Source: Caldanaerobius polysaccharolyticus DSM 13641
Lineage (GTDB): Bacteria > Bacillota > Thermoanaerobacteria > Thermoanaerobacterales > Caldanaerobiaceae
Assembly: GCF_000427425.1 (NCBI RefSeq)
Contig: NZ_KE386495.1
Coordinates: 228,733-292,732, forward strand
Direction: 5' to 3'
Length of the DNA: 64,000 nucleotides
Position 1 is the stretch's first letter. Each line of letters starts with the position of its first letter. The notes below the pieces were generated by a model. It saw nothing but the letters and a program-made list of their open reading frames with translations. It made no database searches and was not told the DNA's origin. The position numbers and the translations under genes were made by a program. Below, in pieces: positions 19,148 through 34,067 of the stretch.

Positions 19148-20173
19148 TTAATTCACAAAAACTTTTTCACTACCCAGGTATTTAGACAGTTGATCGCACA
19201 CAAAACCCCTCATGATTTCATAGCTCTTGTAAGTGACCACGCCATCCTTTTTTGCCATAGGATAGCAAAAAACAGCAGGTTTGCGCCTTTTATTAAACCT
19301 CTTAGCCTGTACCTCGCTCATGCGAAATATCCCTGCATTTACATCTCTTATGCCATGCAGAGGTATGGCATTAAATACTTTTTCAAAAAAATTAGAATAG
19401 ACCTCCTCAAAGTTGTCTATCATCATTATAGGTTCAAAGGATAGTCTCACTTTCAGTCCACCTGCTATGGCCTTCCGGATATTTTCTATCCTTATATCCA
19501 GAGAGGGAGTAAGTCTTTCGTATCGGTCTATTACCTCATCTGGCGACAGCGTCCAAGCCAGTACCACGTTTTGCGGTATATTCATGTCAGAAATAGAGCT
19601 GTAACAGCCGCTTTTCGTCTTTATCTCCACCAACAAATTTTCATTAGATCCGGCATACTGTATCCATCGCGTGGCAAGTCCTGTTAATCGTTCAAGGGCC
19701 AAAAGATCCGAATCATAGGAAATAGACAGGTATATAAATTTATCTCGCGTAAGCGAGGAAACCGCGTGGAAAAAATCCTCTACGTTGACAAAGACCACGA
19801 TGTTTGAAGATGGGTACACGCCCTGCAAATAACAATAATCGCAATCGTAAATGCAATTGAGCACACTGGACGAGTAGTAAAAATTTTCATAACCGAAATC
19901 CTCGCAGAGGGTAGAACCTCTGTACACCATATCTCCCCTCTTTTTGGCCAGTATGAGCTTCTGAGACTTCTTCTGAGCTTCAAAATCCTGAGAAGCCTTG
20001 TTAAACACGTCTTTGTAGTTTTTAACCGTAATCACCCTTGCTTTAGGCAATTTTTGCAATATATCGCTGGATACCGGATATCCTATCGCGTCCTCTTCCA
20101 CGTAAACATGGGAAAATCTGCTAAAAAGATCCAAGCCTTGCGAGCAATGAGTGAAACACTCTTTTTCTTTCAT
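19148..20173 (-). CDS. Spore photoproduct lyase-like radical SAM protein
   Basis: The 341-residue protein has the length and layout of SPL (SplB): the radical SAM motif CIYDCDYCYLQ near residue 108, followed by VVFVNVEDFF as in SPL (TYVNVEE). The CYLQ tyrosine is kept. However, where Bacillus SPL has the hydrogen-donor cysteine in SCTSD, this protein reads SISYDSDLLALE, with no cysteine at that place. SPL repairs UV-made thymine dimers in spores; loss of that cysteine suggests a related but different radical reaction or another donor. It overlaps the upstream nucleoside phosphorylase gene by about 50 bases, and AAGGTG precedes the ATG at 20173. Confidence 0.8.
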   Translation of the reverse strand: MKEKECFTHCSQGLDLFSRFSHVYVEEDAIGYPVSSDILQKLPKARVITVKNYKDVFNKASQDFEAQKKSQKLILAKKRGDMVYRGSTLCEDFGYENFYYSSSVLNCIYDCDYCYLQGVYPSSNIVVFVNVEDFFHAVSSLTRDKFIYLSISYDSDLLALERLTGLATRWIQYAGSNENLLVEIKTKSGCYSSISDMNIPQNVVLAWTLSPDEVIDRYERLTPSLDIRIENIRKAIAGGLKVRLSFEPIMMIDNFEEVYSNFFEKVFNAIPLHGIRDVNAGIFRMSEVQAKRFNKRRKPAVFCYPMAKKDGVVTYKSYEIMRGFVCDQLSKYLGSEKVFVN

Positions 20174-20933
20174 CTTTGGTCATCACCTTTAAATTCGCGT
20201 ATTCTCGCAAAAAATCTATATCATTGCCTGTTCTGGATTTGTACCCCATACAGGCTTTAAGAAGCTGCGCTTTCTGACTTTCGGTCAAGCGAATATTTAA
20301 AGCTATATCTTCTATGGTCTGAATTTCATCGCTACTGAGAATCGGCTTAACGATAGATGTATCTTTTAAACGCGATAAAAATACCGCAATATCCGCCATT
20401 TTTTCGCCAACCAGTGACTCTACAAATTTCTCATCTGAGATGCCGTCGAGCTTACCCGCAGCGATTTTTATAAGCCACACTCTGTGAACATCTGCATATC
20501 TGGACGCCGCCATAAAAAAACCGCTGCTCTCCATATCCCACAGCTCTTCTGACAACTGGCTGTCTCTCAAAGGATGTGAAGAAGCCTCTATTGAGGCTTC
20601 TTCAAAAGGATGCTTTAACAAGATATCCGGGTAAAAATCCCTCAAGGTATCGTGATCCCTGATTTTATTTACAATATAAATAGTCCCCCTATCGCTGCAC
20701 AAAGATCCACATACCCCTATGTTGACGATATAATCCGCCTCTTGCACCGGATTTGTCGCCAACATGTGTGCTACCCCTATAGCGCTATTCGCATTACCTG
20801 TGCCCGTAATTACCAGCTTAATATCATCATTGCTAAATATCTGAAACCTATTCTCGCTCATATCCCTTTTTAACCTGTAATGCTTTATCAAAGGCTTCGC
20901 TCCGGCATGTAAAGCTGTAGATATATAAAGCAT
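20121..20933 (-). CDS. Nucleoside phosphorylase / nucleosidase superfamily protein, paired with the SPL-like gene
   Basis: The roughly 270-residue protein begins MLYISTALHAGAKPLI and carries the purine-nucleoside phosphorylase/MTA nucleosidase signs: TGTGNANSAIGVAHML, NIGVCGSL and the catalytic-glutamate region WDMESSGFFMAA. About 90 C-terminal residues (from about FVESLVGEKMADI) are extra and predicted helical. A longer frame reaches 20966, but the ATG at 20933 has AGGGGG at 20946-20941, so this start is chosen. The end overlaps the SPL-like gene by some 50 bases, so the two products are made together. The substrate is unknown; a modified nucleoside or SAM by-product (5'-deoxyadenosine, MTA) is a reasonable guess. 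Confidence 0.75.
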   Translation of the reverse strand: MLYISTALHAGAKPLIKHYRLKRDMSENRFQIFSNDDIKLVITGTGNANSAIGVAHMLATNPVQEADYIVNIGVCGSLCSDRGTIYIVNKIRDHDTLRDFYPDILLKHPFEEASIEASSHPLRDSQLSEELWDMESSGFFMAASRYADVHRVWLIKIAAGKLDGISDEKFVESLVGEKMADIAVFLSRLKDTSIVKPILSSDEIQTIEDIALNIRLTESQKAQLLKACMGYKSRTGNDIDFLREYANLKVMTKDERKRVFHSLLARLGSF

Positions 20934-20965: not shown

Positions 20966-20974
20966 ATTATACCA
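20966..20974 (-). promoter_or_regulatory. Extended -10 promoter of the phosphorylase/SPL-like operon
   Basis: TGGTATAAT on the minus strand, 33 bases before the ATG at 20933; the -35 region (TTTCTA at 17 bases) is weak. Confidence 0.5.
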
Positions 20975-21085
20975 TAGGTCATAAACCATAGAAAATTATT
21001 AACCTTAAATTTGTTTGCGCTTTATTTAACCTATTTTCATATATTATATTGAAAAAAATCTAATTGTCAAAAGGCAGGGAATATT

Positions 21086-21346
21086 ATGGAAATATACAAT
21101 TTGCCCATAATACCCCTTATAGTAGGCGTTGTTGAAGTCCTCAAACGACTGGGCTTACCAGAAAAATGGTCCGCCTTAGCCTCCGCAATTATTGGCATTA
21201 TAATAGGGATATTTTATATCGCCCCAGGAGACATATTAAAAGGAATTTTAGAAGGATTAGCTATTGGATTAGCAGCAACAGGGCTATACAGCGGTACAAA
21301 AAATACCATAGAAATTTTCAGAAGCAATAAGGCAGGAGGTAAGTAA
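21086..21346 (+). CDS. Small membrane protein, holin-like
   Basis: The 86-residue protein has two hydrophobic segments (IIPLIVGVVEVL and SAIIGIIIGIFYIAP, with a third weaker one GLAIGLAATGLYSG) and a short charged tail ending RSNKAGGK. Size and pattern recall phage holins and small clostridial membrane proteins of unknown role. There is no endolysin or other phage gene beside it, so a lysis function is unproven. AGGCAGGG lies upstream of the ATG. The stop codon sits in the loop of a perfect 10-bp hairpin. Confidence 0.65.
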   Translation: MEIYNLPIIPLIVGVVEVLKRLGLPEKWSALASAIIGIIIGIFYIAPGDILKGILEGLAIGLAATGLYSGTKNTIEIFRSNKAGGK

Positions 21347-26378: not shown

Positions 26379-29300
26379 CTACGCCGCATCTTCAAATAAG
26401 GCTACAGCCTGTTCAATGACCATTTTTACTACATTGTCTAGTTCTTCCTGGTCTTTAAAGCCCTTTCGGCGCAGCAATCTCTTGACCGTTGCCCGAATAG
26501 AAGCTTTGATGTTTTCTTTAATCGTCCAATCTACCTGTCCTTCGGTTTTATTCTTTATTATCCTCACCAGTTCCCTGGCAATCTCTTTTGCTTCTTCGTC
26601 ATTTAAAATCGCTTCTTTTCCTTGACTAACAATATCATAAAATGCAACTTCCTCTTCTGTTAAATCCATCTCTTTTGCCCGTTTATCCATGTTCTGCATT
26701 TCTTTGGCTAAATCAATAAGGTGTTTTATAACCTCTGCAGATGTGATTGCACGATTGTGATATTGATTTAAAACCTTTTCTATCATCTCTTTAAAAGAAG
26801 CATACTTTATCTGGTTCTTTCTGCTTTTGGCCTTGACTTCGTCATTAAGTAGTTTGCGCAAAACCTCAATCTGCAGGTTTTTATTTTCATGTCCCATAAG
26901 TTCATCTAGAAACTCATCACTTAAAATAGATAAATCTGGTTTCTTCAATCCAGCTGCATCAAAAATATCAATCGGTTTGTCGCTTGCCGCAACACCTTCA
27001 GAAATGATCTGTTTTACGGCACTATCCAGTTGTTCAATCGACAATCCTTTAGGTGGAGTGTATTTGACGACATTACTCCTTACTGCTTGGAAAAAAGCTA
27101 CATCAGAGCGAATACGCATTGCTTCTTCTCGCGGTACAACAAGGGCAAAAGCCTTACTTAAAGCATTGCACTGATCAAGAAAATCTTTCTTTATGTTTTC
27201 GTCTCTGTTGATTAATTCCATAGCCTGCTTCAGAAGATAAAGCTTATCGTCTGCACTTTTTCCTTCCCATCCTGCAAAATCAATACCGTGGATGTATGAA
27301 CAGACAATATCATACTTTTCCTGCATAATCCTTATGGCTTCATCGATGGGTAAGGTAGCAGACTCCTTGCCTGTACTTATGGTGTAATTCGCCAGTGCCC
27401 GTTTTAAATCATCAGCAATACCGATATAATCTACTACCAATCCCGCTGGTTTATCCTTGAACACCCTGTTGACTCTGGCTATGGCCTGCATTAAATTGTG
27501 CCCCTTCATGGGCTTGTCGATATACATGGTGTGCAAACATGGCACATCAAAGCCTGTAAGCCACATATCCCTGACAATTACCAGCTTAAGAGGGTCTTTG
27601 GGGTCTTTCATCCTCTTTTCGATTTCTTTGATCTGGGACTTGGTATACAGATGGGGCAAAAATTCCTTGGGATCTTTTGATGCATTCCCCGACATTACGA
27701 TTTTAATTACACCTTTGTCTAAATCATCGCTGTGCCAGTGCGGTCTTATTTTTATTATTTCGTTGTAGAGGTCAACACAAATCCTGCGGCTCATACAGAC
27801 TATCATGCCCTTGCCTTCAAGCACTTTGCATCTTTCTTCAAAATGCTCAACAATGTCCCTTGCCACAGTTTCAAGCCTTTCCTGTGTTCCCACCATGGCT
27901 TCTAGAGCTGCCCACTTTGTCTTTAACTTATTCTTTACTTCTTCTTCCTCGCCCTCAGTCACTTCTTCAAAATCTCTGTCAATATCCTCATTTATTAGGT
28001 GAAGTTTTACCAATCTTCCTTCGTAGTAAATGGGTACAATAGCTTTGTCTTCTACTGCCTGTTTCATATCATAAATGCTGATATAATCTCCAAATACCTG
28101 AAGGGTAGATTTGTCCCCCAACTCAATAGGCGTTCCGGTAAAGCCAATAAAGCTGGCGTTAGGAAGTGCCTGTCTTATATTTTTGGCAAGACCATCGATA
28201 AACTCATAGTGCGACCTATGGGCCTCATCAACAATGACAATGATGTTGTTGCGGTCAGAAAGCAGAGGGTAGGTTTTGCTTTTGTTTAAGGCTCTTTTGA
28301 ATTTGGGATCAATAACTTCTAAACCTTCTTCTGCTTCAGCCTGGAATTTCTGAATGGTGGTAAAAAAGATACCACCTGCTGCAACTTGCGAAAGTTTTTC
28401 TTTTAAGTCTTCCACGCTTTCTGCCTGTTTTGGATAAGGAATTAAGTCGCTTGAATTGCAGAAAGTCCCATACAACTGGTCATCAAGATCGTTGCGGTCT
28501 GTAATAACTACAATTGTAGGGTTCTGAAGTTCTTTAAGCTGTATAACCTTCCCTGTATAAAACACCATAGAAAGGCTCTTACCGCTACCCTGCGTATGCC
28601 AGAACGTACCTATTCTCCTATCACCATCAGGAGATGTTGCTTTAATTGTTTCTTCTACTGCCTTATTTACACCGTAATATTGGTGATACATGGCCATAAT
28701 TTTAATTACCTCGTCTTTTGTAGTGGTAAAAGTGACAAAGTTCCTGATGATATCCAGCACCCTGTTTTTATCAAACATACCTTTTATCAATACCTCAAGG
28801 GCTGGCATTCCCTCTACGCTATGTATTCCGTCAATGGACTTCCATGCAGAGAATCTCTCCCATGGTGCAGTAAGCGTTCCTGCTTTTGCTTCCGTCCCAT
28901 CGGATACAACGCAGATCTCGTTATAAGCAAAAAGGTCTGGAATATCCCTTTTATACAATTCAAGCTGTCTATACGCTCCTTCTATCGTAGCTGTCTCATC
29001 CAATGGATTTTTAAGTTCAAATACTCCAACTGGCAGGCCATTGATATAGACGATAATATCAGGAATTCTTACACCTGCACCTTTGATTTTCACCTGATTG
29101 CAGACAAGAAAATCGTTGTTTTCTGGGTTTTCATAATCAAATATCTTTACTATTTCTCCAATTTCTTCACCTTCATTGTTGCGTCTTGTAACCACTGCAC
29201 CATTGCGGTATATTTTGTGTATCTCCTTGTTGTTTAGCTCAATCCTTGGATACTGAAAGTTTTTTAGCTGGCGCATAGCATCTTCAATACAGCTTGATGG

Positions 29301-29480
29301 AAGGAGGGGATTTAATTTTATCAGTGCATTATAAAGCCTATTCTTTAAGATAACCTCCCTGTAGTCTTCCCTATCCTCAATTGGTATTTCGCTGCCGTGC
29401 AGGTATTCATACCCTATGTCTTTAAACCATTTGATGGCTGCTTCCTCTACAACACTCTCGAAATTAGCGTTTAAAGACAT
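26379..29480 (-). CDS. hsdR: Type I restriction enzyme, R (motor/nuclease) subunit
   Basis: The 1033-residue subunit cuts and translocates DNA in the HsdR2M2S complex. An N-terminal nuclease domain shows [18 protein letters not shown] (the D...ExK core, near residue 160), then Walker [16 protein letters not shown] (near 297), DEAHRS (near 418), FTGTP, and the helicase C domain with [11 protein letters not shown]. The in-frame TTG at 29486 is less likely than the ATG at 29480, which has AAGGGGTGA upstream. It is the last gene of the M-S-(DUF262)-R set on the minus strand. The C-terminal region is rich in charged residues. Length is within the usual 950-1100 range. Confidence 0.95.
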
Positions 29481-29516
29481 CGTCAATTCACCCCTTTATA
29501 CCATTCACTATATTGT

Positions 29517-31259
29517 TTAGAACATTAAAATCTGCATAAGCTTATCCTTCATCATTTCTTTGCGCTTATAGAAAAAGTCTTTAAAATTAACAATAGAAAG
29601 ATCCAAACCTCTCAAATAGTGAAGATCTTTATATTGATTTTTGGCAATGTCATCTTTATAGTTTTCATCGAACCATTCGATGAAAGGTTTTGCACTCTTC
29701 GACATATTTACGTTACCTTCTAAAAGCTGTAAATTGGGAATCTTATTATAATTTTCAATGCAAAATTCAATATCTTCTGGTTTCACTCCTAATTTTAGGA
29801 GTTTTTCTCTACTCGTAAAGAAACTTTTGGGATGAATATGGTCCTGATGAAATAGATTGTTATAATTTAGTGTGGGATATAAAAGAGCTAAGACCGAAAA
29901 AGTATATCTTTTGCCGTATTCATATTCCAATAGATTTTCTATTTCATCTTCGCCAAAATCCAACGATTTCGGTGTGCCTTTCAGCCTTTGTTTCATATTG
30001 TCAACTGGGAAACTATTCAAGTTATCTCTTATAACCTCTCTTATAGTCCTTAAAATATTATCTGATTGCCCGCCAAAAATTTGCTTCAAAAGAACAATAT
30101 GAAGCCATTTTTTTATCTTTTCTCTTTCATCCCCAAACTTAACAGAAGTTACAAAACTACCATTTAGACCTTTTTTATACAAATAATAAGCTATTGGTAT
30201 AATTGCATTATTTGAAGTTAAGGTCTGATAATCAAAGCCGAATGTATTTATTAATTCTACGCTTGTCCTTATGCTTTCCTTTATCTTATCCCAGTTATCT
30301 TGAATAACCGCCATATTTTGAGCGTTAAAATTGTCAACTTTAAATCTGATATCACTAATATCGCAGAGGACAAGGCAAGTCTTCAAGACAAAGTCTTTAT
30401 TAAATGTAAATCCTCTTCCAATATCATTAATTTCATCTACGAACTTTATAATTTCCTCTCGTGCATCCCTTTTATACCATTAGGCAGTAGCAATTGAAAG
30501 TAGCAAATCAGAATAACTCAACTCCGTGCCGCCACTATTTACACGTATAAAAATATTCAACACCTTATCAAGTTCTTGATCTTCTTCAAGGTAATAATTT
30601 ATCAATGTTCGCTTAAAAATAACATCTGATAATCTAAAAAGTGTTCTAGATGCAAATTTATTTGTAGCAAGCTGATTTTCAATCAAAAAATCATTAATCA
30701 GTGAAGGATCTTCACGATTAAATTTCTTTTCATCAAGAATATCTCCTACTTTAAACCAAAAAGTGTTTTCATCTCTTTTTTTTGCATCTTCCTCGGTAAG
30801 AAATCTGAAATCATATTTCAAATCTTCATCATCAGCTTCTTTAAGTAAATTCAAATAGAGATATTTCTTCGGAAAAGCAGCAGGATTATCCCATCGCATA
30901 TAAGGAATTTTTGATGCATAACTTCCTTTTAAAGCAATATAAAGGGAAGTAAGTCTCTGTTGTCCATCAAGCACTGATATAATTTCTTCATCACCCATCA
31001 AAACTGCTTTCTGATTGTGGCTTTTGCCCTGATGATAGTGGCAGATAAATTCATAAAACTGATATTTTTTTACGCTTTCCTTTGAAACCTTCCAAAAAAG
31101 AAAAGAACCAATAGGATAACCCCTCATGATTGAATCAAAAAGCCGTTCTATTTGCTCTTCGCTCCAAACAAACTCCCTTTGTATCGCAGGAAGCAGATAT
31201 TTCCTGCTACTTATATTTTTTATGGCATCATATATCGTAATCGGTGTTTGAAATGACAT
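29517..31259 (-). pseudogene. DUF262-DUF1524 (GmrSD-like) nuclease gene with one in-frame stop
   Basis: One continuous reading frame of about 580 codons is broken only by TAA at 30482-30480, codon 260. Before it comes a DUF262 domain with ISVLDGQQRLTSLY (near residue 95) and LSYSDLLLSIATA; right after the stop the protein goes on WYKRDAREEIIKFVDEIND and continues to a DUF1524 domain with the HNH-like DHIHPKSFF (near 470). In intact homologues the junction reads without a break, often with Gln or His at the stop position, so a C-to-T change is likely. GmrSD-type enzymes cleave modified phage DNA. AAGGAG precedes the ATG. The gene lies between hsdS and hsdR and may be dead, read through, or mis-sequenced. 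Confidence 0.85.
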
Positions 31260-31294
31260 GTCTTTATACTCCTTTCAAGGTTGTTAATCAATTT

Positions 31295-32509
31295 TCACAT
31301 TACCCTTATTTCGCCTGATATAAGTTTGGGAAGCAAGGTATCGCGAAGTTGGGATAAAATTTTCACTTCTCTTCCGTTGCTTATATAAAACTCAATTAAA
31401 GGACTTAATATTCTGTCAAATTCCTTCAGCCATTCATCATCTGGTACGATTACTTTTGCCTGACTCAAATGTTCTCGCTTGATGTGACCCATTGTTGTTG
31501 CTTTATCTTCAGCAATTCTTCTAAAATCGTTAAGATGATATTTTATCCAATAATAATAAAACCATTTAGGATACTTCTCAGATGAAACTTTGAATAAATG
31601 CTGATTTAACCCTGCTTTGCCGCCACACCATACTCTTACTTCCAAACTACCTGACCATGAAAAAATTACATCTCCGTCATCTACAATATATCTTGGATCA
31701 ATATCCGTCCTACATTTATCGCTATCGGAAGAGGTTGCACCCTGTTTCAGTTCTCTTATTTTTAATACAGGGAGATAATTATTCTCATCGACGGGGCGAT
31801 ATTTTTGCATTGCTAATCCGTTTAAAAAATCGGCAATTTCATCAAGGGCTTTAACTTCCCACCCCTTCGGTATTGGCCCCAATTCACTATCTACGAACTC
31901 TCCCCCGCTGGATTTATAAGGTTCACCATTTTCGTTTGGAAATTCAAAATCAATAAACCAATGCTTAAATATGGCCTGTGCTATTTCTTCAAGGGTTTTG
32001 TTCATCTCATTATTGAGTTCGATTTTATCGTCGAAAGCTGAAAGGATTGATGCAATTTTTTGTTGTATTTTAATTGAGGGAAGCTTAATCATCATTTTTT
32101 TTAAATGATCCCAATCTGCTCTTGGCATTTTAGTTCCTTTAGAAGAAGCAGTGGCTATATCGATAAATTTTTTTGAAGCTATAACATAAAAAAGAAAACT
32201 TTGATCTGCTATATCGCAATCTTTAGTTCTCAAAACCATTATATCAGTTGAACAAACACCACTAAAGCGTGGTTTATATACCTTCCTAAAATAAGGTCTC
32301 AACTTACCAAATAATATATCATTCGGTTCAAATCTGTATTTATTACTTATAACATCGGTAGACACTCCTATTCCAGAAAGCCTTAAAGTTCCTTGTTCTA
32401 TATGTTCTAATCCTAAATATGGTAAAACCTCATTTTCATTTGGCTTGTATGAGTTTGTTACAACATCTAACACTTGACCTAACTCAACTTCTTTCCACTC
32501 ACTCCCCAT
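31295..32509 (-). CDS. hsdS: Type I restriction-modification, specificity (S) subunit
   Basis: The 404-residue protein has two target-recognition domains separated by conserved helical spacers. The first spacer follows LPSIKIQQKIASILSAFDDK and ELNNEMNKTLEEIAQAIFKHW (residues about 145-190); the second TRD starts at GPIPKGWEVKALDEIADFLNG (near 215), and the last spacer contains QLRDTLLPKLISGEIR at the end. It sets the DNA sequence recognised by both methylation and cleavage. The start ATG lies inside the end of hsdM (11-base overlap), a usual sign of translational coupling. The recognition sequence cannot be deduced by reading. Confidence 0.93.
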   Translation of the reverse strand: MGSEWKEVELGQVLDVVTNSYKPNENEVLPYLGLEHIEQGTLRLSGIGVSTDVISNKYRFEPNDILFGKLRPYFRKVYKPRFSGVCSTDIMVLRTKDCDIADQSFLFYVIASKKFIDIATASSKGTKMPRADWDHLKKMMIKLPSIKIQQKIASILSAFDDKIELNNEMNKTLEEIAQAIFKHWFIDFEFPNENGEPYKSSGGEFVDSELGPIPKGWEVKALDEIADFLNGLAMQKYRPVDENNYLPVLKIRELKQGATSSDSDKCRTDIDPRYIVDDGDVIFSWSGSLEVRVWCGGKAGLNQHLFKVSSEKYPKWFYYYWIKYHLNDFRRIAEDKATTMGHIKREHLSQAKVIVPDDEWLKEFDRILSPLIEFYISNGREVKILSQLRDTLLPKLISGEIRVM

Positions 32510-34067
32510 ATCCCAACTCCTCCAGATTTGCCTTTATGATTTCATCAAGCCTTCTTGCTTCTTTCATTTGTTGATAAAGTTTCTCGGTTAGTTCTGCCAT
32601 TTTTTCTTCAAAAGGTATACCGTCATCTTCTGCATCTTCTATACCCACATACCTACCTGGAGCCAATACGTAGTCATTTGCGGCAATGACCTCCATTGGC
32701 ACAGCAGCACAGAAGCCCTTGATATCCTCGTAGCCCTTTTTATCCCTCCACTTGTGGTATGTATCAGCAATCTTTTGAATTTCTTCATCTGTAAACTCTC
32801 TATGGGTCCTATCTACCATAACGCCCATTTTCCGTGCATCAATAAAAAGTGTTTCTTTTGTTTCCCTGCTTTTGCGGATAAACCACAAACATGCAGGAAT
32901 TCCTGTTGTATAAAATAGCTGTGGTGGCAGTGCTACCATACAATCCACCAGGTTATCCTCTATAATTCTTTTCCTTATTTCGTATTCCGCATTATTGCTT
33001 GTAGTCATAGAACCGTTGGCAAGTACAAAACCAGCCACACCATTTGGCGCAAGGTGATAAATAAAATGCTGTATCCACGCATAATTTGCATTGGAATCTG
33101 GTGGTAACCCGTATTTCCATCTTACATCATCTGCTACTCTATCTGCTCCCCAAACACTGTCGTTAAACGGTGGATTGGCCAATATGTAATGTGCTCTTAA
33201 ATCCTTGAATTGATCATCTATATATGAATTACCCAGCTTTATATCCGCTTCAATACCTCGAATGGCAAGGTTCATTTTACACAATCTATAAGTAGTCGGG
33301 TTAGATTCCTGGCCATATACCGATATATCTCCTTTTTTACCCGCATGGGCTTCTACAAAGCGCATACTCTGGACAAACATACCTCCAGAACCACAACAGG
33401 GATCAAAAACCCTGCCATGCAAAGGTTGAATCATTTCGACGAGCAATTTAACCACGCTGTGCGGAGTAAAGAATTCGCCGCCACCTTTACCCTCTTTCTG
33501 TGCAAACATAGAAAGGAAATATTCATAAACCCTACCCAAAATATCTTTTTCATCGTCTTTGTTAAAATCAATGCTTCCAATCAAATTAACAATTTCGCCG
33601 AGAGTATGTGGATCCAAAGGTGCTCTGGTATATACTTTAGGTAGAACTCCTCTTAGTTGTTTAGGATTTTCTTTTTCAATCAAATCCATGGCATTATCAA
33701 TGAGCTTCCCAATATCGCTTCGTTGAGCATTGGCCATAATGTACTCATATCGAGCTTCCTGTGGTACATAAAATACATTTACTGCCATGTATTCGTCTTT
33801 ATCTTCCAATATAAATTGTACTTCTTCATCGTTTGTACAATAATATTCTTCGTTGCTTGGGTCTTTTATTAGATACTGTAATTCCTCCTGACGTTGTTTA
33901 AACGCATCGGAAATATATTTCAAAAAGATAAGTCCAAGAACAATATGTTTGTATTCCGAGGGCTCCATATTGTTTCGCAACCTATCAGCAGCTGCCCAAA
34001 GGGTTGAAGCAAAATTTAAAACTCCATCGTTATTTTGACCCACTTCTGTTTTTACCCCTTCCTTCAA
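32499..34067 (-). CDS. hsdM: Type I restriction-modification, methyltransferase (M) subunit
   Basis: The 522-residue N6-adenine DNA methyltransferase has an N-terminal HsdM domain (LWAAADRLRNNMEPSEYKHI), the SAM-binding motif VFDPCCGSGGMFVQS (near residue 222) and the catalytic NPPF in YILANPPFNDS (near 300). The start is uncertain: TTG at 34067 has GGAGG only three bases away, while an in-frame GTG at 34043 has AAGGAAGGGG about 11 bases upstream; both are just before the conserved NNDGVLNFASTLW. It heads the restriction locus and has an extended -10 promoter about 30 bases upstream. The order M-S-(DUF262)-R with R last allows methylation before cutting. Confidence 0.95.
   Translation of the reverse strand: MKEGVKTEVGQNNDGVLNFASTLWAAADRLRNNMEPSEYKHIVLGLIFLKYISDAFKQRQEELQYLIKDPSNEEYYCTNDEEVQFILEDKDEYMAVNVFYVPQEARYEYIMANAQRSDIGKLIDNAMDLIEKENPKQLRGVLPKVYTRAPLDPHTLGEIVNLIGSIDFNKDDEKDILGRVYEYFLSMFAQKEGKGGGEFFTPHSVVKLLVEMIQPLHGRVFDPCCGSGGMFVQSMRFVEAHAGKKGDISVYGQESNPTTYRLCKMNLAIRGIEADIKLGNSYIDDQFKDLRAHYILANPPFNDSVWGADRVADDVRWKYGLPPDSNANYAWIQHFIYHLAPNGVAGFVLANGSMTTSNNAEYEIRKRIIEDNLVDCMVALPPQLFYTTGIPACLWFIRKSRETKETLFIDARKMGVMVDRTHREFTDEEIQKIADTYHKWRDKKGYEDIKGFCAAVPMEVIAANDYVLAPGRYVGIEDAEDDGIPFEEKMAELTEKLYQQMKEARRLDEIIKANLEELGYGE

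Follow-up and report, generated by a model that had tools for sequence, protein, structure and literature searches.

A spore photoproduct lyase-like radical SAM protein and an MTA/SAH-nucleosidase-fold partner are paired in several bacterial families

A radical SAM protein resembling spore photoproduct (SP) lyase (SPL) and a protein with the MTA/SAH nucleosidase (MTAN) fold are encoded by overlapping genes in Caldanaerobius polysaccharolyticus DSM 13641, and the joint inheritance and fusions of the two across several bacterial families point to an undescribed joint reaction. The best explanation we can offer, and one that we hold tentatively, is that the pair consists of an SPL-fold radical enzyme and a partner that hydrolyses its 5'-deoxyadenosine by-product. 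We found no description of the pair, of the SPL-like clade, or of its association with an SDR oxidoreductase in open-licence papers.

The window analyzed here is a stretch of 64,000 nucleotides from contig NZ_KE386495.1, in which both genes lie on the minus strand, with the nucleosidase gene upstream (20121-20933; 270 aa from an ATG start) and the SPL-like gene downstream (19148-20173; 341 aa). An in-frame upstream TTG at 20966 would lengthen the nucleosidase to 281 aa; the ATG was chosen as the start that fits its homologues. Given this start, the genes share 53 nt (20121-20173, minus strand), bearing out the overlap of about 50 bases in the original prediction. A promoter-like TTGACA-16-TATAAT element that agrees with the consensus at 12 of 12 positions, as a sequence match only, lies upstream of the pair (21043-21070, minus strand). 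Facing the pair is a small ORF encoding an 86-aa membrane-type protein with no Pfam match (21086-21346, plus strand), and in the sister genome (L136) this ORF is likewise a neighbour of the pair.

The two proteins co-occur among 61 relatives. A survey across the phylum (398 genomes) detected the SPL-like gene in 24 genomes, 23 of which also contained the nucleosidase gene; the latter was found in none of the 374 genomes without the SPL-like gene (Fisher p of about 2e-36, with genomes treated as independent and no correction for phylogeny). The overlap of the pair is conserved across many genera and, because of this conservation and the co-occurrence, the pairing is beyond chance. Genus g3 keeps both genes although they are unlinked: in those of its genomes that were checked, they are separated by more than 100 kb or sit on different contigs. 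Among the 250 genera of family f84, probably the Lachnospiraceae, 39 have the SPL-like gene, accompanied by an adjacent or fused nucleosidase gene in 33 and by none in 6; the 33 comprise 27 adjacent cases (a C-terminal piece only in G436) and 6 fusions. Of 34 members of this family without a strong SPL-like gene, none gave a nucleosidase score above the generic level. Fusions of the nucleosidase and the SPL-like protein in one ORF thus occur in six f84 genera, and also in Fusobacterium, e.g. a fused protein of 623 aa in Fusobacterium vincentii. The tight functional pairing that had been proposed from the overlap is upheld by the 23/24 co-occurrence, the retention of unlinked genes, and the fusions, and a gene-neighbourhood survey, suggested along with that proposal, found the pairing conserved in other genomes of several families.

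Loss of one partner has a direction. The SPL-like gene is kept and the nucleosidase lost in the six f84 genomes, the nucleosidase is truncated in G436 and in a fecal contig, and it is interrupted by a stop in G034, whereas the reverse loss, with the nucleosidase kept and the SPL-like gene gone, was not seen in the genomes surveyed. Such a pattern fits a nucleosidase that serves the radical enzyme. A Campylobacterales contig also carries the SPL-like gene with no visible nucleosidase, but only 361 bases of this contig precede the match. Decay of the pair was observed at G034:C1:2266313-2267152, where the stop lies in the nucleosidase gene, and at G010:C1:1277666-1279496, where both genes contain stops.

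The SPL-like protein matches the Pfam SPL family (PF20903) with 73.4 bits (cut-off 27), placing it in the superfamily. Its nearest solved relative is Geobacillus SPL, with a match covering residues 23-308, and SPL structures were also the first matches of a low-confidence structure model (pLDDT 58, three-sequence input). Against the SPL equivalog TIGR04070, however, it scores 80.3 bits where the cut-off is 400, and the SPL-like proteins scored all lie between 73 and 80 bits. They form a clade apart from all other SPLs, with 100% SH-aLRT and a very long branch, and in many genomes they coexist with a second SPL, which in several cases reaches the equivalog level. The gene is also present in Fusobacterium, a non-spore-forming genus. 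The separate clade, the second SPL, and the occurrence in Fusobacterium agree with the earlier view that the protein does not carry out classic spore photoproduct repair.

Like SplB (TIGR04070, PF20903), the protein has the radical SAM fold, an equivalent of Bacillus subtilis (Bs) Y97, an SD motif after the C141 site, and conserved TK and R positions. It also shares the cluster loop CxxxCxxCYLQ, noted previously and seen here as C107-x3-C111-x2-C114-YLQ, whose [4Fe-4S] cluster motif (19832-19855, minus strand) is found in 82/82 homologues. Unlike SplB, it falls far under the equivalog cut-off in a clade of its own, has a tyrosine at the C141 site and an alternative cysteine, Cys90, has a near-constant nucleosidase partner, and occurs outside spore-formers; it has also lost the greater part of the KYGQFGYGKYVY region at the C-terminus of true SPLs. 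The second SPL-related protein of the window genome (L001; G000:C3:828280-829263) scores 228 bits against TIGR04070 and has neither a C141-type nor a C74-type cysteine, reading FEIGSNSD; it represents a further SPL subfamily that we also saw in L019, L020, and L093.

The original prediction described the SPL-like protein as lacking the catalytic cysteine. This holds for the place of B. subtilis Cys141 (Gt C140), which is occupied by Tyr153 (19715-19717, minus strand) in the context YLSISYDSD, with Y in 79 and F in 3 of 82 homologues. Upstream of the cluster, however, is the near-invariant Cys90 (19904-19906, minus strand), a candidate hydrogen donor that is kept in 81/82 homologues and lies at most three residues from the C. 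acetobutylicum-type cysteine position; the lack of a catalytic cysteine is therefore not established, and the conservation suggests that the clade likely has an alternative hydrogen-donor cysteine. The C. acetobutylicum SPL is active and uses its own C74 (PMC5368176). The two types of protein both lack the C141-site cysteine and both conserve a cysteine on the N-terminal side of the cluster, but Cys90 lies 17 residues before the first cluster cysteine instead of 14, and the equivalence depends on gap placement: MAFFT aligns Cys90 with the C74-type column, whereas hhalign sets it three residues off. No conclusion on function follows from the absent C141-type cysteine, since it is equally absent in equivalog-level clostridial SPLs. 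Only 1 (G058) of 16 high-scoring SPLs surveyed has a cysteine at this site, the other 15 having Ala or Ser, and clostridial SPLs with Ala there (two scored) exceed the NCBI SPL equivalog cut-off. Tyr113 is invariant in the 82 distinct SPL-like homologues. Position 115, equivalent to Bs Y99, is Tyr in 65/82 and Phe in 17/82; Bs SPL recycles SAM via C141 and Y99, and C141A and Y99F mutants do not (PMC3742179).

Taken as a family profile, the nucleosidase has MTA/SAH nucleosidases as its nearest solved relatives, with 32 bits at best. The window protein gave no match above cut-off to the MTA/SAH nucleosidase models TIGR01704 and PRK05584; its best model match was the PRK05634 nucleosidase (43.8 bits vs a cut-off of 129). 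Futalosine hydrolase was the second-best family match, with TIGR03664 scores of 29 bits for the window protein and 32 bits for an intact orthologue, both under the cut-off of 124.7. The family resembles MtnN/Pfs (TIGR01704) in its N-terminal core and in where the catalytic E, ME, and D lie, and differs from it in two respects: a loop motif of its own, YPD..H..E..E, and an extra C-terminal domain, helical and about 85 residues long. In a low-confidence model (pLDDT 55, two-sequence input), the C-terminal third of the window protein is predicted to be all-helical. The earlier description as a nucleosidase/phosphorylase with an extra C-terminal helical domain is thus supported with respect to the fold and the predicted helices, but its phosphorylase part has to be abandoned, as the catalytic positions of the family are of the hydrolase (MTAN) type.

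These positions, which we take to correspond to Glu12, Glu174, and Asp197 of E. coli MTAN, read E/E/D in every other full-length homologue aligned and G/E/G in the window copy, which therefore does not have the catalytic residues of an MTA/SAH nucleosidase (76 aligned rows: 2 truncated, 1 from the window, and 73 intact, with one gene present twice). On the minus strand, Gly11 (GGA, 20901-20903) replaces the general-base Glu and Gly160 (GGT, 20454-20456) the general-acid Asp, while Glu135 of the DME motif (20529-20531), the ribose-binding Glu of MTAN, is kept. With glycine at both the base and the acid positions, the window nucleosidase is probably inactive. Its reading frame is intact, and when the genus's two genomes were compared for dN/dS at this gene, the synonymous sites proved to be saturated.

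A third gene accompanies the pair in part of its range. It encodes an SDR oxidoreductase (e.g. at L168:7197-7913 and L127:7430-8122) whose specific profile scores 227-402, vs up to 126 for generic SDRs, and it adjoins the SPL-like gene in 26 of the 39 f84 loci as well as in G286, Fusobacterium, and two fecal contigs. Within f84, the SDR is present in 30 of the 39 genera with the SPL-like gene and in none of the 211 without it; it is unlinked to that gene in 4 of the 30 (G419, G487, G492, and G657). No orthologue was found in the window genome (G000), where the best score was 92 bits, or in its relatives, and we rejected the SDR as part of the system in the window.

On the by-product explanation, the SPL-like protein would use its [4Fe-4S] cluster and SAM to generate a 5'-deoxyadenosyl radical, which would perform an SPL-type hydrogen abstraction and bond cleavage on a substrate that is probably nucleotide-like and not spore-specific. 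We infer that SAM is probably consumed and 5'-deoxyadenosine released, because the protein has no C141-type donor and, in some genera, no SAM-recycling Tyr. 5'-Deoxyadenosine is an inhibitor of radical SAM enzymes that cells must dispose of, for which most bacteria use a nucleosidase (PMC8102628). A dedicated MTA/SAH-type nucleosidase, co-translated or fused with the radical enzyme, would clear this inhibitor, and the SDR of f84 and Fusobacterium could, as a reductase, act on either the freed sugar or the product. Canonical MTAN is missing in most g5 genomes and in all g7 genomes with the pair, and genus g7 combines this absence with Phe at the Y99-equivalent site. The window genome has a separate canonical MTAN (212 bits) that could take over from the probably inactive copy.

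Several observations do not sit well with by-product clearing. G001 and genus g3 keep an intact nucleosidase despite having a canonical MTAN, and G034, a member of g7, has neither an uninterrupted nucleosidase gene nor a canonical MTAN. If Cys90 is a hydrogen donor, SAM might be recycled, with less need for by-product removal. Moreover, the large distance from known MTANs, the loop motif, and the helical domain suggest a nucleosidase substrate other than plain 5'-deoxyadenosine. Hydrolysis of the by-product accounts for more of the overall pattern than do repair or salvage roles and, if correct, would provide an example of a radical SAM enzyme with its own 5'-deoxyadenosine nucleosidase. A vaguely annotated "SPL family" gene becomes a defined unit comprising a clade, Cys90, and a nucleosidase, with a private SDR in f84 and Fusobacterium. 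Each of the folds is already known, and what goes beyond them depends on the substrate.

A less probable alternative, though one to be weighed seriously, is that the radical enzyme makes or releases a nucleoside-type intermediate from which the nucleosidase removes the purine, the SDR then reducing or oxidizing the remainder in a biosynthetic or catabolic pathway. The precedent is the futalosine route, in which MqnE adds a 5'-deoxyadenosyl group to its substrate; MqnE and the futalosine hydrolase MqnB share with our pair the logic of a radical SAM enzyme and a purine-releasing nucleosidase, but the radical SAM family is another one and the sequence match is weak. Futalosine hydrolase as second-best family match, the confinement of the SDR to genera with the SPL-like gene, its retention with that gene in the nucleosidase-less genomes G252, G423, and G487, and a loop motif suggestive of a special 5'-substituent all argue for such a pathway. 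However, two enzymes suffice at least in the order of the window genome, where the SDR is absent; the window genome and several others have no working nucleosidase, which is awkward for an obligate step; and the radical enzyme resembles SPL, which abstracts hydrogen and does not add adenosyl groups. In a related version that we consider similarly doubtful, the nucleosidase, SPL-like protein, and SDR would constitute an undescribed small-molecule or damaged-nucleotide pathway with a two-gene core in thermophiles, the nucleosidase being a non-catalytic partner in one genome; the radical enzyme would produce a nucleoside-type intermediate, the nucleosidase would open it, and the SDR would reduce it. 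Either version would amount to a new metabolic route.

It is rather unlikely that the SPL-like protein serves as an SP lyase in vegetative cells or acts in the repair of some other pyrimidine crosslink, with Cys90 donating the hydrogen by analogy with C74 and the nucleosidase as an accessory. The SPL fold, the conservation of Cys90 and Y113, the clostridial SPLs that have Ala in place of C141 and exceed the NCBI cut-off, the activity of the C. acetobutylicum enzyme with C74 (PMC5368176), and the presence of polA closely 3' of the pair in family f41 are consistent with repair. The scores of 73-80 bits against a cut-off of 400, the long-branched separate clade and its coexistence with equivalog-level SPLs, the loss of most of the C-terminal region, the SDR association, and the hhalign placement of Cys90 off the exact C74-type column weigh against it. 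Genes for polA, coaE, and a lytic transglycosylase follow the pair at the f41 loci L126:2033, L128, L129, and L135, and in G114 they begin 12 bases past the SPL-like gene; being confined to f41, this neighbourhood was rejected as evidence of repair.

Salvage of modified nucleosides, as first suggested for the pair, or tRNA/DNA modification, in which the nucleosidase would release a modified base, agrees with the pairing of a nucleosidase fold and a radical SAM enzyme whose fold acts on nucleic acids but is very improbable, given that no base-salvage, transport, or tRNA-modification gene accompanies the pair and that the hydrolase residues are those of enzymes acting on 5'-substituted adenosines.

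A link to sporulation was set aside as well, since nearly all relatives have SASP and SpoIVA, whether or not they carry the pair, and the two proteins so do not discriminate. We also rejected a mobile or defence role: no relatives were found in viral contigs and there was no PADLOC match. The single plasmid match is a chromosome-sized Fusobacterium record of 2.1 Mb, and the two records labelled "phage" are fecal contigs, unverified, in which bacterial-type genes flank the match. Elsewhere in the window, positions 26379-34067 (minus strand) hold the R, S, and M genes of a type I restriction-modification locus, with an uncharacterised gene between S and R, together with a GmrSD_N gene.
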